A stretch of DNA of 35,955 nt, from positions 1 to 35,955 of the forward strand of contig JAPYTK010000031.1 in NCBI GenBank assembly GCA_029941785.1, written 5' to 3'. Origin of the DNA: Polyangiaceae bacterium. GTDB lineage: Bacteria > Myxococcota_A > Polyangia > Polyangiales > Polyangiaceae. The notes beneath the pieces were generated by a model. The model was not told the DNA's origin. It worked only from the letters and a program-made list of their open reading frames with translations, and did not search any database. Position numbers and translations under genes: made by a program. Below are positions 15,498 through 22,102 of the stretch, piece after piece; within the stretch, counting starts at the first letter, position 1, and every line of letters begins with the position of its first letter.

Positions 15498-17933
15498 TTA
15501 CAAGCGGTACGAGAGAAAACCCATGATGCGTCGACCCACGCGGTTACCGAATGGATGCATTTGGGGAGGCGGTCCGACCACACCAGATAGAGCATTGAAC
15601 ACCACGACCTCCGCGCGGGCCTTCCGACGCTCGAGGAAGGAGTAGCCCACGCTACCATTTAGAAGATGGTAGGCGGGCAAATCGAAGCGCCGGTCGACAA
15701 TGCCTTCGAGGGACGCAATCTGCTCGACCCAGCGCTGTGCCGTCTGATAGTGCACACTGAGTTCAGCATCGAGTCCAAAGGACGAACGCAACTGCACGCC
15801 GGCGTTGACCTTGTGACGACTCGTCGACCGGTCTGCCGAAGCCGCACAGCCCGTCGGCCGTTCGAGCAGCTTGTAGTTGACGGCGTAATTGGCGAACACG
15901 TCGATGCCTTCGACGCCATACCAACGGGCCCCAAGCTCCCCGCCAAACACGTGATCGACGCCGCAGTCGTTCTGCCAGCCTCCACTCGCCACTCGGAAGC
16001 GGCCCGTCTCCGGGTTGATACCGCCCAGACCCGCGGCCACGTCGGAGAGCGTGAGCGGTCGCGCGTCCGCGAGTTCGATCGCATCGCTGATCCGATGATA
16101 ATAGGCTGCCGTTTCCACCTGAAACGCGCGGTGCTCCTGATTGGCATAGCCCAGCTCCGCCGCCAGAATATTCTCGGGACCAAGCCGAAAATCCACATCG
16201 TCATCCCGCGATGAGGAGGAGAGCATCTCGAGCCCGGCCAGAGAAAGTTGGATGGGCAAGTGGAGATGAGACTCGAGAAAACTCGGTGAACGAAAGGCTG
16301 TGCCAACCGAAGCGCGTACCGCCTGGCGCCCGCTCTCGCTCGGCCTGAGGATCACGCTCCCCCGGGCTGAAGGAACAGCCGTTCGAATCGAAGGAACGTA
16401 ATCCACCCGCCCCGACAAGACCACGCGCACAGCCTTCGACACCCGAACCGCGTCCTGGGCAAACACGCCCACATGATTTTCCGTGGGAGGCTCATCGACG
16501 AGGTAATTCCAGCGAACACGCTTGAGCCGGTATCCCAGGCCCGCACTCAGTTCGTGTTCGAAGTGGGCGAGGAGGCGAAAAACCCGATTGAATTGCACGT
16601 CGGCACCCACGACATCTTGCCGCGGGTCGGTTTCGTACAGACCGTGGCCAAGATAGGCAGCGTTGGCGGAAGCAAAAGCGGACAGGTGCGTGTAGGTCAG
16701 CCTAAACACGAGGGGATCGACGTCCAAGCGACCGTCGACGTAACCGTGGTCCATGTCGACGACATAGTCGTTGAATGGGCCAACGCCGTAGATGTCGATC
16801 AAGCTGTGGCTGTAGCCGCTCGTGACCCGCAAGCGTTTGCCTTTGGAGAATCGTCGAGTGACATCCAAGTAGGCGCGCGCGTTTTGTGCGCCAACGTTTT
16901 GATCAAAGTCACTGCGCCGAAGATCCACACGCGCCGAAGACACCTCCCGCGTCCATCGTGGATAACGAGTAAACCCAGCCCCGGCGCGATACGCGAGATC
17001 GCCATCTCGCCCAGTCGTCGACAAGGAAGCGTACAGCTGCGCATGGTCTCCGACACCGACTCGCGCCCTATTGCCTCCCTCGCCAGGTGTCCGGGTAATG
17101 ATGTTCACGACCCCTGCAAAAGCGTCGGCGCCGTAAAGAGAAGAGCCCGGACCGCGCACGACCTCGATGCGCTCCACCTGATCGACGTCGATCGCCAATC
17201 CCTCCCAGAATGTCGAACCGAGAATGTCGTTCTTGATGACCCGACCGTCGATCAGAATGAGGAGTTTGTTCGCGAGTCGCCCATTGGAGCCACGCATCGA
17301 GACGTTGCTGTCGCCACCGGTGATCTGCATGACGTCCATGCCCGCTACACGGCGCAACAGCTCGGGGATGCGCGTGATCCCCGAGAGACGGATGTCCTGT
17401 GCGGTCACGATGGTGGTCGAGTTGGGCGCATCGAGCGGATTCTGAGCCCGACGCGAAGCGGTCACAATTCGCTCCTCGTACAGGTGCGGAGTCCTCCCGA
17501 CCTCCCCGGTTCGTCCCGCTGCGGAGGGCTCACCGCGGGACATCGACTTGGTTGCGAGTTGGGCCGCACGTCGGCGCTTGAGATCGACGAGCAGGGCCTC
17601 GACCGCATCCCGATCGTCGGGCTCCGTCCGCAGGTAGCTCCGGTACACGGTGATGGCCCGGTCGAGATGGCCTGCGTCGGCGAGGGCGCGCGCGATGTTG
17701 TAACGGACCGCCGGATGCGGAAAGATCTCGTCCGCCCGCTCGAGCTCCGCAATACCTGTTTCGTATCGCCCCTGCGCAATGAGCTGCATGCCCGCCTCGA
17801 AATGACCGCGCGCTTCACTCCGCGCGTCGGCGCGTCCGCGCCGGCTATAGCCCGATGCCAACGCCAAGGTCAGGACGAAGAAACACAGGGGGAGCCATGA
17901 GCGCCGCAATGACACGGGCCCACGATAGGTCAA
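15498..17933 (-). CDS. TonB-dependent receptor with N-terminal TPR region
   Basis: This 811-residue outer-membrane protein has a signal peptide (about 1-37, hydrophobic PLCFFVLTLALASG). Residues about 38-115 form TPR-like helices (EAGMQLIAQGRYETGIAELE, YNIARALADAGHLDRAITVY). A TonB-box-like and plug domain follows (about 150-290): EERIVTASRRAQNPLDAP, TIVTAQDIRLSGI, VSMRGSNGR, LLILIDGRVI, VERIEVVRGPGSSLYGADAF. The beta-barrel makes up the rest. The last residue is Leu rather than the usual aromatic. A TPR region before the plug is not part of classical siderophore receptors. The gene overlaps the kinase gene by four bases and precedes a lipoprotein gene by five bases. The transported ligand cannot be told from sequence. 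Confidence 0.92.
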   Translation of the reverse strand: MTYRGPVSLRRSWLPLCFFVLTLALASGYSRRGRADARSEARGHFEAGMQLIAQGRYETGIAELERADEIFPHPAVRYNIARALADAGHLDRAITVYRSYLRTEPDDRDAVEALLVDLKRRRAAQLATKSMSRGEPSAAGRTGEVGRTPHLYEERIVTASRRAQNPLDAPNSTTIVTAQDIRLSGITRIPELLRRVAGMDVMQITGGDSNVSMRGSNGRLANKLLILIDGRVIKNDILGSTFWEGLAIDVDQVERIEVVRGPGSSLYGADAFAGVVNIITRTPGEGGNRARVGVGDHAQLYASLSTTGRDGDLAYRAGAGFTRYPRWTREVSSARVDLRRSDFDQNVGAQNARAYLDVTRRFSKGKRLRVTSGYSHSLIDIYGVGPFNDYVVDMDHGYVDGRLDVDPLVFRLTYTHLSAFASANAAYLGHGLYETDPRQDVVGADVQFNRVFRLLAHFEHELSAGLGYRLKRVRWNYLVDEPPTENHVGVFAQDAVRVSKAVRVVLSGRVDYVPSIRTAVPSARGSVILRPSESGRQAVRASVGTAFRSPSFLESHLHLPIQLSLAGLEMLSSSSRDDDVDFRLGPENILAAELGYANQEHRAFQVETAAYYHRISDAIELADARPLTLSDVAAGLGGINPETGRFRVASGGWQNDCGVDHVFGGELGARWYGVEGIDVFANYAVNYKLLERPTGCAASADRSTSRHKVNAGVQLRSSFGLDAELSVHYQTAQRWVEQIASLEGIVDRRFDLPAYHLLNGSVGYSFLERRKARAEVVVFNALSGVVGPPPQMHPFGNRVGRRIMGFLSYRL

Positions 17934-19633
17934 TACGGCGAGGCTTTGTACCCACTCGGTGTCTTGAGCTTCTTGGGCCTTGGCGTACCGGGCGATCGCC
18001 GCGGGCGCAGTTTCTTCGATGTTCGAGCCCGATCGAGCTTCACGTCGATGCGAAGGGATCGCCTCTGAACCTCGACCGATCGAGGACGATGTCCCGCCTT
18101 GCGCAGGGTAAGTACCAGAGGCTCAGCGTCGCGAACCGAGCGACGGATCGTGCACGGCGTGGCCTCGCAGCGCTGCGTCTCGCCCTCATGAACGCTAGCC
18201 CCGGCTGGCTCGCTGCTCACGACCACCCCCCCCACGTCGATGCCTTCGCCTATCGCAACCACACCGGCGTCCAGACCCGCGACGGGAATGACCCGGGCGA
18301 GACGTGGTTCCGCTCGGCCCGCCAGCTCCGCTTCATGGGTCACGCTGACGCCAAGAGCCATCAGAAACAGCGCAGCGGCCGCGATCCCGACACGGCGCTT
18401 TGGCAAGCGAAAGCCTGCCCCAAGCGGCTCCAAAACGGCGGATTGGGCCATCGGTGCAGGCGTCGCGCTCGGGATGAATGGCTTGCCGGAACTGGGCGGG
18501 CCGGGAAAGTCGAGCGCCGCGGGGATGTGGTGATCTCGAGTGGTGGGGGCAGCACTCTCGAGAAGCTGATCGGGCAAGGTGTCGGAGCTTGGCGGGTCGT
18601 CGAGTAACGGGAACTCCGAAGAAGAGAAGGGCGGGCGCATCACCGGTTCGGAGACCGACGGCGGATAGCGACTAGGCGCAATGCCATCGATCCCGACGAG
18701 GGCTTCGAGCATGTGATCGATGTCCTCGAAACGATCGTCAGGATCTTTTGCGAGGCAGCGCATGACGACGTCGATGCACGCCTCGCCTGCCCGCAATTCA
18801 GGAAGTATGCGACGCATGGGCGGAGGAGGCTCGTTGACGTGGGCCATGAGCGTCTTGACGCTGTTGCCCCGCTCGAACGGTGGCTCTCCAGTCAACATCT
18901 CGTAAGCCACTACCCCTAACGCATAAATATCCGTCCGAGGCGAGACCGCATGACCTAAGATCTGCTCGGGCGCCATGTACTTTGGGGAGCCCATGAACAG
19001 ACCTTCCTGAGTCAGGTCTTCGGTGTCTTCCGGGGTGAACTTCTTCACCAGACCGAAATCAAGCACCTTCAAGGCGAGTTCTTCTCCTTGCGTCGTCACA
19101 ACGACATTCGCGGGCTTCATGTCTCGGTGGATCACCCCTAGCGCGTGTGCCTCACGAAGCGAGCGCCCGACCTCCCGCATGATGTGAGACACGCTCACTT
19201 CATCCATGGGGCCATCTTCGCGCAATATCTGGTAGAGCGTCCGGCCTCGCACATACTCCATCGCGATGTAGTAGATGTCGCCGTCTTGCCCGTAATCGTA
19301 GACCGTAATCGTGTTGGCGTGATTCAAATTCGCCGCCGTCGAGGCCTCACGAAAGAAGCGCCGCTGAAACTCCGGGTCGTCTTCTTGATCGTACTTCGGC
19401 GAGAGCACCTTGAGCGCGCACAGCCGACCCAAAGGAGCTTGGACCGCCTTGTAGACCTTTCCCATGCCGCCGCGCGCGATGAGCGCCGTGATGGTAAACT
19501 TGTCGCTCACGGTCCGACCGATGAGCGGATCTTGCCGCGTGGACTCGGTCGGTTGAGGATCGTCGATCGACGACTCGGCAAGTCGTGGATCGGTCGACGG
19601 AATCCTCTTGTTCGGCCGCGGCGGTTCCTTCAC
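17930..19633 (-). CDS. Transmembrane Ser/Thr protein kinase with PEGA-like tail
   Basis: The product has 567 residues. The kinase domain spans about 46-315: Gly-loop IARGGMGKVYKA (52-63), Lys75 in CALKVL, catalytic HRDMKPANVV (169-178), LDFGLVKKF (191-199) and the MAPEQ segment (220-224). All catalytic residues are present. A Pro/Ser-rich linker (315-410) leads to one membrane segment (about 415-432, VGIAAAALFLMALGVSV). The extracytoplasmic tail has a PEGA-like domain (VVVSSEPAGASVHEG, LRKAGHRPRSVEV), then a basic C-terminus. It heads a run with the TonB receptor (4-base overlap), a lipoprotein and ribF, so signalling and an envelope uptake system look coordinated. It is divergent from the selenoprotein gene at 19715. 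Confidence 0.95.
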   Translation of the reverse strand: MKEPPRPNKRIPSTDPRLAESSIDDPQPTESTRQDPLIGRTVSDKFTITALIARGGMGKVYKAVQAPLGRLCALKVLSPKYDQEDDPEFQRRFFREASTAANLNHANTITVYDYGQDGDIYYIAMEYVRGRTLYQILREDGPMDEVSVSHIMREVGRSLREAHALGVIHRDMKPANVVVTTQGEELALKVLDFGLVKKFTPEDTEDLTQEGLFMGSPKYMAPEQILGHAVSPRTDIYALGVVAYEMLTGEPPFERGNSVKTLMAHVNEPPPPMRRILPELRAGEACIDVVMRCLAKDPDDRFEDIDHMLEALVGIDGIAPSRYPPSVSEPVMRPPFSSSEFPLLDDPPSSDTLPDQLLESAAPTTRDHHIPAALDFPGPPSSGKPFIPSATPAPMAQSAVLEPLGAGFRLPKRRVGIAAAALFLMALGVSVTHEAELAGRAEPRLARVIPVAGLDAGVVAIGEGIDVGGVVVSSEPAGASVHEGETQRCEATPCTIRRSVRDAEPLVLTLRKAGHRPRSVEVQRRSLRIDVKLDRARTSKKLRPRRSPGTPRPKKLKTPSGYKASPY

Positions 19634-19714: not shown

Positions 19715-20260
19715 ATGGTCGAAGACGTGGCTCATTCGCTCGACAACACCTTCTCGCTACCGAATGAAGCGGGGCACTCGGTGCGTATTTCGGACGCGCT
19801 CGGAGAGCGCACCGGCACGGTGCTCCTGTCATTCCGCGGACATTGGTGACCTTTCTGCGTCAGTTCCTGGAAGGGACTGAAGAAACGGGCATCCGCATTC
19901 GAAGCTCTCGGAGTGCAAGTCTTCGGCATCGCCACCGACACGCAAGAGCAGCTTTCCGACTTCCGGATCGCGCTCGATTTGCCTTTCACGATGCTGTCCG
20001 ACCCCCTGCTGAGCAGCGCTCAGGTGTTCGATATCCCGGTCAGCAGCAAGGCGTCGTACGCGACCTCCTTGGCTCTGCACCCCGTGCTTCGGCATCTGCC
20101 TAAGAAGGCGTTCTTGCAACCGGTCTTTTTGCTCTGGAGGGGAAAGGAACAGCTTTACGCCTGGCGTCAAACCGAGAAACTGCGCAATCTCTTCGGCGCC
20201 AATGGTCGGCCTTCTCCTCAGGGCATCTTCGACATCACCGAACGTTTGATCACCGGCTAA
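19715..20260 (+). CDS. Peroxiredoxin-like selenoprotein (in-frame TGA read as selenocysteine, W-U-P-F-C)
   Basis: This is a 181-residue AhpC/TSA-type redoxin with one in-frame TGA at 19847-19849. Before it the frame reads TFSLPNEAGHSVRISDAL and VLLSFRGHW. After it the same frame continues PFCVSSWKGLKK, FEALGVQVFGIATDTQEQL, LPFTMLSDPLLSSAQVF and GANGRPSPQGIFDITERL to the stop. Relatives in this family read RGxWCP[FY]C, so the TGA replaces exactly the first, nucleophilic Cys. Reading it as selenocysteine gives U45-P-F-C48. A SECIS-like hairpin follows at 19852-19885 and the base after TGA is C, a context weak for termination. The expected role is thiol- or peroxide-reduction in the cytoplasm. 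The ATG at 19715 fits the family start; a GTG at 19649 would add 22 residues. Nonsense mutation is the alternative. The sel genes must lie elsewhere. Confidence 0.83.
19852..19885 (+). promoter_or_regulatory. Putative bacterial SECIS element of the peroxiredoxin-like gene
   Basis: This mRNA hairpin directly follows the TGA codon. A lower 5-pair stem is formed by tttct (19852-19856) and agaaa (19881-19885), with a three-base bulge gcg on the 5' side. An upper 8-pair stem is formed by tcagttcc (19860-19867) and gggactga (19873-19880), with one U-G wobble. The five-base apical loop is tggaa (19868-19872). There are 18 bases between the TGA and the loop, and a G is at the second loop position. 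Both agree with the known bacterial SECIS pattern (loop about 16-37 bases after UGA, G among the first two loop bases). The layout of lower stem, bulge, upper stem and small loop resembles the element in fdhF. Confidence 0.78.
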
Positions 20261-20301
20261 GCTCGCCAAACTGAAGCAGCATGCTAGAAGAGCGCCTCGT
20301 C

Positions 20302-20601
20302 ATGAAACTCAACAACGCTCAAAAGCGCCACTTGCGCAGTCTCGGTCATCACCTCGACCCCGTGGTGCAGCTCGGCAAGAAGGGGATCACCGAAGGACTC
20401 ACCGAGGCAACAGACGTCGCGCTCACCACCCACGAGCTGATCAAGATCAAGTGCGGTAGCGAGTGCCCTGTGTCACGCGAGGACGTCGGCGAACAACTCT
20501 CGCAGCAGCTCAAGGCCTCACTGGTCCAGACGCTGGGGGGGACCATCTTGCTTTACCGCCGTCACCCGCAGAAGCCGAAAATCAAACTGCCCCGCGCCTG
20601 A
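20302..20601 (+). CDS. yhbY: YhbY-family RNA-binding protein (CRM domain)
   Basis: This small protein binds RNA through a CRM/YhbY fold and in other bacteria is associated with pre-50S ribosomal subunits. The ATG at 20302 gives 99 residues and matches the family start (MKLNNAQKRHLRSLGHHLDPVVQLGKKGIT). The in-frame ATG at 20281 adds seven residues and is an alternative. Conserved features are the GKKGITEG loop (GxxG type), ALTTHELIKIKC and the C-terminal GTILLYRRHPQKPKIKLPR. It starts 41 bases after the selenoprotein gene on the same strand and may share its transcript. It converges closely with the minus-strand gene ending at 20617. Confidence 0.93.
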   Translation: MKLNNAQKRHLRSLGHHLDPVVQLGKKGITEGLTEATDVALTTHELIKIKCGSECPVSREDVGEQLSQQLKASLVQTLGGTILLYRRHPQKPKIKLPRA

Positions 20602-20616
20602 CCGGGAGCGCTCATC

Positions 20617-21279
20617 CTACGATGGCGCCGTCAGGTCGATGGGATCACCGGCAGCCGCACCGACGACGCGCTCCGCATCCGCGATCACCTCGGCGAGTTT
20701 CGGCATCTTCTCCCGACGAGCCGCCTCGGCCAGCAATTCCCTAGCGGGGCCGAACTCCTGCGCCACCATGGCAGCGAGCGTCAACGCATCGATGGCGCTC
20801 CGCCGAACAACCATGTCTGGCGAGGCGAGATGCAGAACGAAGAGATCCGTCCAGTCTTCGTCCCACGCCACCGCCATGTGTGCGAGCACCCGAAGGGCGC
20901 GCGGCGCATCGTCTCGACCCACATCGAGCGCCACCCCCAACAGCTTGGACTGCGCGATGAACCCTGTCCGCTGAAGGATCTCTTGCATCACGGGGATCAC
21001 GCCCGATCCGGCGGCCTCAACGAATACGATGTCCAGTTCGCGGTTGTCGAACACGATGAACTGTGCGCCGCCGTCGGTCGCGTATTTGACGACCCTGCCG
21101 TCCGCTTCGTCGGCCGCCTGAGCAATACCCCGGTCCGATAGGAGGGCCCCGAGCACCGCCGCCGTGTTCCGGTTGTCTGTCTCGGGGGACAGCGCATAGA
21201 TGTAACGGTCGCGCTGCGTCATCGCCACGAGCAGTTGTTTGGCGCGCTTCTTCAGCGCCGTCTCGTTGGTCACCTCCAT
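20617..21279 (-). CDS. HEAT-like helical protein, function unknown
   Basis: The product has 220 residues. The ATG at 21279 was chosen because it lies 4 bases after the stop of the upstream gene; the longer open frame upstream only reads antiparallel shadow of that gene. The protein is soluble, without a signal peptide. Residues about 1-100 form an alpha/beta segment (YIYALSPETDNRNTAAVL, GGAQFIVFDNRELDIVFVEA). The second half is helical with a HEAT-like repeat (LASPDMVVRRSAIDALTLAAM). It ends in a short acidic tail. No known family is recognised. It is probably co-transcribed with the outer-membrane protein gene upstream. Confidence 0.72.
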   Translation of the reverse strand: MEVTNETALKKRAKQLLVAMTQRDRYIYALSPETDNRNTAAVLGALLSDRGIAQAADEADGRVVKYATDGGAQFIVFDNRELDIVFVEAAGSGVIPVMQEILQRTGFIAQSKLLGVALDVGRDDAPRALRVLAHMAVAWDEDWTDLFVLHLASPDMVVRRSAIDALTLAAMVAQEFGPARELLAEAARREKMPKLAEVIADAERVVGAAAGDPIDLTAPS

Positions 21280-21283
21280 ACGG

Positions 21284-22102
21284 TCACAGGATGAGGGATA
21301 GGCCCACGGTTTGAACGAACGAACCTTCCGTGGCGCCCAAGGGCCCCACATCCCGCGTCGCGCCATCAGCGTCGACAGCTGGAACCACCTCGTGAGCCAG
21401 GCCACTCTGCCCCAGAGCCGGCGCAAACACCGCCTCGTAGGAGAGCGCCAGCCATCGGGGCACGATGTCGTACGCGATTCCTAATCCTACCGGGATCTCC
21501 GCAAAAACCCCGCTGCGGCTACCCACCTCGAAGGTGTTGTTGCCACCATTCGTGATGGTCTGCGGCTCAAACTGAAACCGGCCCCAGCCCACCCCGATGC
21601 TCAGCCATGCTCGTGCGCGTGGGCTAAGTTCGTACGTCGGAGCCAACCTCGCCCCAAACACGAAGGTCTCCAACGAGAGCGGGCCGTAACTCGCGTCGGG
21701 GCGAATCGACTTGTCGGTGCCGCTCTGCAGACTGCCCGGCGGGAGCTGAACGTCATGCACAACCCGAAAGAAGTACGGTTGGAAACGCAGCCACGACCAC
21801 ACGCGCCAGCGCAAGTGCACGCCGAAGCCGGGCGCCGCGGGATAATGCGTCCGGCTGGGTTGCAAGGCCTGGCTGAAAGGTCGACTCAGATAGACAAAGT
21901 CTCCACCAATCTCGATGCGCCGTTGCCAACGGGGTGCAGGCCACGGCTCGAGTTCGGGAAGCGCGGGGAGACCTTGCCGCTTCTCGCGCTCGGCTTGCTC
22001 GACGTCCCGATCGGGGGGCGACGAAGACTCTGCGGCATAGGCCACCTGGCTGCAACAGAGCAGGCAGCAACAAAACAAGAAGGAGCCGAGTATGGCGTGC
22101 AC
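21284..22102 (-). CDS. Predicted outer-membrane beta-barrel protein
   Basis: The 272-residue product has a signal peptide (about 1-23, Cys-rich hydrophobic core FLFCCCLLCCSQVAYA with an A-Y-A cleavage site). The mature protein shows alternating strands typical of an 8- to 10-strand barrel: RIEIGGDFVYLSRPF, FGVHLRWRVWSWLRFQPYFF, ETFVFGARLAPTYEL, AWLSIGVGWGRFQF, VFAEIPVGLGIAYDI, LALSYEAVFAPAL and a final TVGLSLIL strand. Such small barrels are common structural or porin-like proteins; no substrate can be inferred. It is divergent from the desaturase gene at 22226 with 123 bases between. Confidence 0.75.
   Translation of the reverse strand: MHAILGSFLFCCCLLCCSQVAYAAESSSPPDRDVEQAEREKRQGLPALPELEPWPAPRWQRRIEIGGDFVYLSRPFSQALQPSRTHYPAAPGFGVHLRWRVWSWLRFQPYFFRVVHDVQLPPGSLQSGTDKSIRPDASYGPLSLETFVFGARLAPTYELSPRARAWLSIGVGWGRFQFEPQTITNGGNNTFEVGSRSGVFAEIPVGLGIAYDIVPRWLALSYEAVFAPALGQSGLAHEVVPAVDADGATRDVGPLGATEGSFVQTVGLSLIL

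Follow-up and report, generated by a model that had tools for sequence, protein, structure and literature searches.

The window analysed here, a stretch of 35,955 nucleotides from a Polyangiaceae bacterium, is contig C31 of a draft genome of 6.03 Mb (415 contigs, 98.8% complete). At its centre of interest lies a frame of 181 residues plus TAA, 19715-20260, whose sole interruption is a TGA at 19847-19849, confirming a preliminary description of this DNA in which a single in-frame TGA was said to split an otherwise open frame. The features of the locus are:

17930-19633, minus strand: Ser/Thr protein kinase gene, divergent and upstream, setting the 5' limit of the selenoprotein gene
19715-20260, plus strand: predicted selenoprotein gene, AhpC/TSA-Redoxin type (Prx-like), 181 aa with U45-P-F-C48; ATG at 19715, TAA at 20258-20260
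19847-19849, plus strand: in-frame TGA predicted to encode selenocysteine as residue 45; every ortholog shares the TGA at this column, where other homologs have Cys
19850-19858, plus strand: P46-F47-C48, completing the UPFC redox motif; the putative resolving Cys is at 19856-19858, and C48 is invariant in 45 homologs
19860-19880, plus strand: bSECIS-like hairpin, 9-bp stem UCAGUUCCU/AGGGACUGA, GGA triloop at 19869-19871, 19 nt spacing from the UGA
20072-20215, plus strand: subfamily signature LHP-x-[LIV]-R...FLQP...NLxGAxGRP, residues 120-167, including P136 and R165, from the alignment of homologs
20281-20601, plus strand: yhbY-like gene with a CRS1/YhbY RNA-binding domain, starting 20 bp past the selenoprotein stop

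The encoded protein would have a size of about 20 kDa and is probably cytosolic, with no apparent signal peptide, and U45 and C48 are its only Cys or Sec residues. A single Pfam match to AhpC-TSA (PF00578, residues 12-108, 66.7 bits, cut-off 26) spans the TGA, so that both sides do belong to one redoxin family as first proposed, and Redoxin (PF08534, residues 12-114) is also matched above its cut-off with 42.4 bits. None of the curated NCBIfam models reached its cut-off on the window protein or its orthologs. The TGA occupies the first-Cys position of the W-C-P-[FY]-C motif of homologs and the second Cys is intact, both as originally noted. Standard gene calling had been expected to split the gene into two fragments and hide the enzyme; the downstream fragment, 19913-20260, is indeed the only one in the standard ORF listing, while the anticipated upstream fragment is absent from it.

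Co-transcription of the selenoprotein gene with the downstream yhbY-like gene is possible. The gene neighbourhood is not conserved: instead of the kinase and yhbY genes, the orthologs examined are flanked by aminotransferase and CN-hydrolase, by GNAT and glyoxalase, or by GIY-YIG genes, and none of the neighbouring genes suggests a partner. Neither a sigma-70-type promoter upstream of the gene nor, in a scan of the window, an Rfam match was found. Further along the window, two overlapping frames without a Pfam match (20617-21426 and 21284-22102) lie on the minus strand at 20617-22102.

The capacity to decode UGA as selenocysteine, predicted from this gene in the preliminary description, is reflected in the genome, where selA, selB, selC and selD are all present. 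The tRNA-Sec gene scores 74.3 bits (gathering score 47) and is also called by ARAGORN, with anticodon TCA, and selB adjoins it in divergent orientation. The selA gene is complete (481 bits), and selD scores 280 bits but is truncated by the end of contig C100, so that its Sec/Cys position is not covered. The features by which bacterial selenoproteins are recognized are thus found together: a TGA at a redox-Cys position, the four sel genes in the genome and a hairpin in agreement with the bSECIS rule. According to this rule, the apical loop is 3-9 nt and the stem 4-16 bp, with a G in the first two loop positions (PMC13188914), and the element lies 16-37 nt from the UGA with an MFE of at most -7.5 kcal/mol (PMC13188914, 2026 review). 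The hairpin at 19860-19880 agrees with the rule on every count, the first 40 nt after the UGA having a folding energy of -13.4 kcal/mol, and a consensus bacterial SECIS was therefore found where a search for one had been suggested.

The hairpin occurs in all four orthologous sequences, including the window gene; 86% of cells are paired, and at two pairs both partners have changed. Versions slid along these four sequences were clearly worse, and 66 of 500 shuffles were as good; the shuffle support from the four orthologs alone is thus modest and suggestive. For the ortholog in G206 (a genome of another Myxococcota class), the hairpin is unremarkable for the protein sequence it encodes (P 0.32), and overall folding energy compared with synonymous shuffles gave a weak signal (z -1.7 to 0). 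A hairpin with a G in the loop and a stem of 6 bp or more was present in 18 of 22 TGA paralogs from Myxococcota versus 1 of 23 Cys paralogs (Fisher p 7e-8, relatedness being ignored), and this hairpin-specific test discriminates TGA from Cys genes much better than global folding energy does.

Three orthologs with 42-50% identity over the full length were found in the Myxococcota genomes searched, one in a MAG of the same family (Polyangiaceae OFTM3, G008; L018/L051), one in another family of the same class (G467, L160) and one in G206 (L161). All three carry TGA in the same column, and the random loss of frame in relatives that would have marked a decaying gene is not seen. Past the TGA, the orthologs share 40-53% amino-acid identity and nucleotide differences fall mostly at third positions, which indicates that the downstream part is translated and under purifying selection. 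The shared TGA column, together with conservation that runs on past it, argues that the in-frame TGA is not there by chance. The four sequences form one clade (support 100/99), and the next relatives (G575 and G578; L194, L195), both also with TGA, join it with weaker support (94/62). No Cys ortholog was seen among the Myxococcota genomes searched, and judged by these sequences the subfamily is apparently Sec-only. Across the wider set of homologs, the residue-45 column holds Cys or TGA, as an alignment proposed at the outset was meant to reveal; R41, G42, U/C45, P46, C48 and D96 are invariant in 45 homologs, and P136, which we infer to be the cis-Pro, and R165 are near-invariant.

The gene is one of several of its kind in the genome. 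Of the 21 AhpC-TSA matches, eight contain a TGA, which in every case replaces the redox Cys: besides WUPFC of the window protein, the motifs are TPGUTIEGC, FVUPYC, TFUPVC, MWUPPC, AWUAGC, AWUSTC and GWUPGC. The seven other genes lie on contigs C316, C41, C162, C9, C182, C52 and C39 (L198, L200, L204, L210, L211, L212, L213) and have most probably been mis-called by standard annotation as well. In a set of 74 Myxococcota genomes, treated as independent, selA scored over its cut-off in 39 of 40 genomes with TGA redoxins versus 9 of 34 without (p 3e-11), and the sole TGA-redoxin genome lacking such a selA (G344) is just 85% complete. The nine genomes with selA yet no TGA redoxin at E 1e-8 are G023, G114, G261, G229, G410, G413, G431, G454 and G489.

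A structure model built from the four orthologs only was poor (pLDDT 54) and was replaced by one based on a 45-row alignment. The model from 45 homologs (pLDDT 92.3, pTM 0.88) has a peroxiredoxin/thioredoxin fold; its best PDB matches are PrxQ/Bcp proteins (3hjp, Z 20.4, rmsd 2.3 over 155 residues), with further matches to proteins of the ResA type. In this model U45 would directly precede the helix 46-56, similar to the attacking Cys of thioredoxins, and the active site, U45-P-F-C48, is a thioredoxin-like UxxC. The peroxiredoxin signature PxxxT/SxxC(U) is absent, the corresponding segment reading RGHWUPFC, and alignment to 5enu places R41 at the Pro and U45 at the Thr. This replacement of PxxxTxxC by RxxxUxxC makes a thioredoxin-like selenenylsulfide oxidoreductase more likely than a true peroxidase, and the original label of a peroxiredoxin-like protein accordingly holds in a refined sense: by its motif, the protein is Prx-like and not a peroxiredoxin proper.

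We consider it highly probable (about 0.93), judging from the combined sequence evidence, that 19715-20260 encodes a Prx-like thioredoxin-fold selenoprotein whose UGA is decoded, under the direction of the hairpin, by the organism's own tRNA-Sec, SelA, SelB and SelD. The earlier claim that the gene encodes a selenoprotein is thereby supported by the Sec genes, the SECIS element and the TGAs of the orthologs. In the proposed mechanism, the ribosome would read the UGA as selenocysteine with the help of these four components, and the SECIS hairpin, located within the coding sequence just past the UGA, would direct the recoding, for which the sequence evidence is strong. The motif and fold suggest that the U45 selenolate attacks the substrate and that C48 then resolves the U45 intermediate as a selenenylsulfide; disulfides, or else oxidised thiols or peroxides, would be reduced, with electrons probably supplied by a thioredoxin- or glutaredoxin-type reductant.

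The same selenoprotein might instead serve mainly in peroxide reduction, the peroxidatic role falling to U45 or C48 in the manner of PrxQ/Bcp. Selenols reduce peroxides well, and the nearest solved folds are the Bcp/PrxQ peroxiredoxins; against this stand the thioredoxin-type arrangement of the UxxC motif, the missing PxxxTxxC signature and the separate PrxQ-like gene of the same genome, with its TGA at the peroxidatic Cys (TPGUTIEGC), and we regard a mainly peroxidatic role as unlikely. A more radical alternative would do away with the selenoprotein and leave two short genes, a 44-residue peptide and a 115-residue protein starting at GTG 19913. This is the picture obtained from standard ORF calling, but it would break up a domain match that covers both halves and leave the second piece without the UxxC motif and helix 1, and the codons between 19850 and 19912 are conserved in all orthologs. 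Two separate genes are accordingly very improbable.

Still less credence can be given to a nonsense change of TGC or TGT, whether the gene is dead or has been misread. The assembly is a draft of 415 contigs and one base change suffices to create a TGA, but a pseudogene or sequencing error is already contradicted by the three orthologs, which have the same TGA followed by a conserved protein, and TGA recurs at the redox Cys of seven other AhpC/TSA genes in a genome where a SECIS and all Sec genes are found. Reassignment or general read-through of UGA without selenocysteine, which would likewise leave an in-frame TGA in a coding frame, is equally remote: TGA is the ordinary stop of 11 of the 24 window genes in the analysis gene set, the TGAs of the eight redoxins fall at redox Cys positions, and a tRNA-Sec with a TCA anticodon is present.

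The predicted selenoprotein thus joins a known class, since redoxin-type UxxC selenoproteins do exist in bacteria, as had been assumed. The 2005 Sargasso Sea survey (PMC1088965) already counted Prx-like UxxC selenoproteins among those known, and reviews from 2022 and 2026 include them again; a table in PMC13188914 contains both Prx-like thiol:disulfide oxidoreductase selenoproteins (PF00578, UxxC/UxxU) and a Redoxin family protein selenoprotein (PF08534, UxxC). The window protein shares with the former the Pfam family, Sec as the first residue of a thioredoxin-like UxxC and a bacterial SECIS downstream, and differs from these proteins, which were compared by description only, in its C-terminal signature LHPxxR, FLQP, NLxGAxGRP. 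It is likened to the latter, also by description only, through the PF08534 match and the UxxC motif. The Sec-containing peroxiredoxin (TxxU) and PrxQ/Bcp have the same fold and provide the best PDB matches, but the TxxC/U signature of these enzymes is replaced by UxxC. Likeness to the SelL-related model NF040769 is weak (27.4 bits over residues 14-134, at most 26.6 bits for the orthologs) and far under the curated cut-off of 120. The SelL motif is UxxU, and that of the window protein UxxC.

While the kind of selenoprotein is known, this branch and the count of such genes in this genome look little described, and eight Sec redoxins in one myxobacterial genome is more unusual than the subfamily itself. 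Among Myxococcota, aerobic soil bacteria are the most familiar members. According to a 2026 review, selenoproteins are seldom kept by aerobes; the Sec-rich lineages treated in reviews are mostly anaerobic, and the 2022 and 2026 reviews make no mention of myxobacteria. A search of a literature collection with few subscription papers returned nothing relevant on selenoproteins in Myxococcota or Myxococcales. With knowledge of the organism's oxygen use, the eight Sec redoxins would make the rarity of selenoproteins in aerobes testable. Since gene callers hide this enzyme and most probably seven other redoxins, databases are likely to give a false picture of redox biology in Sec-using myxobacteria.

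The subfamily is rare, with four close and two distant members among several hundred Myxococcota genomes. No relatives were found on viral contigs, and the four found on plasmids are weak and partial. We tentatively suggest, as a possibility that is itself somewhat doubtful, that this Sec-only redoxin subfamily is limited to Myxococcota, the phylum searched, and to genomes with expanded Sec use in AhpC/TSA proteins, where it may be part of a selenium-based thiol redox system. A separate group of redoxins with an FW/YW-U-PPC motif and a C-terminal extension, whose open frames run to some 400 codons or beyond, was also observed (L163 and L180 in G217 and G387, with similar genes elsewhere); these extended proteins have a weak NCBIfam match or none and are widespread among genomes belonging to another Myxococcota class.
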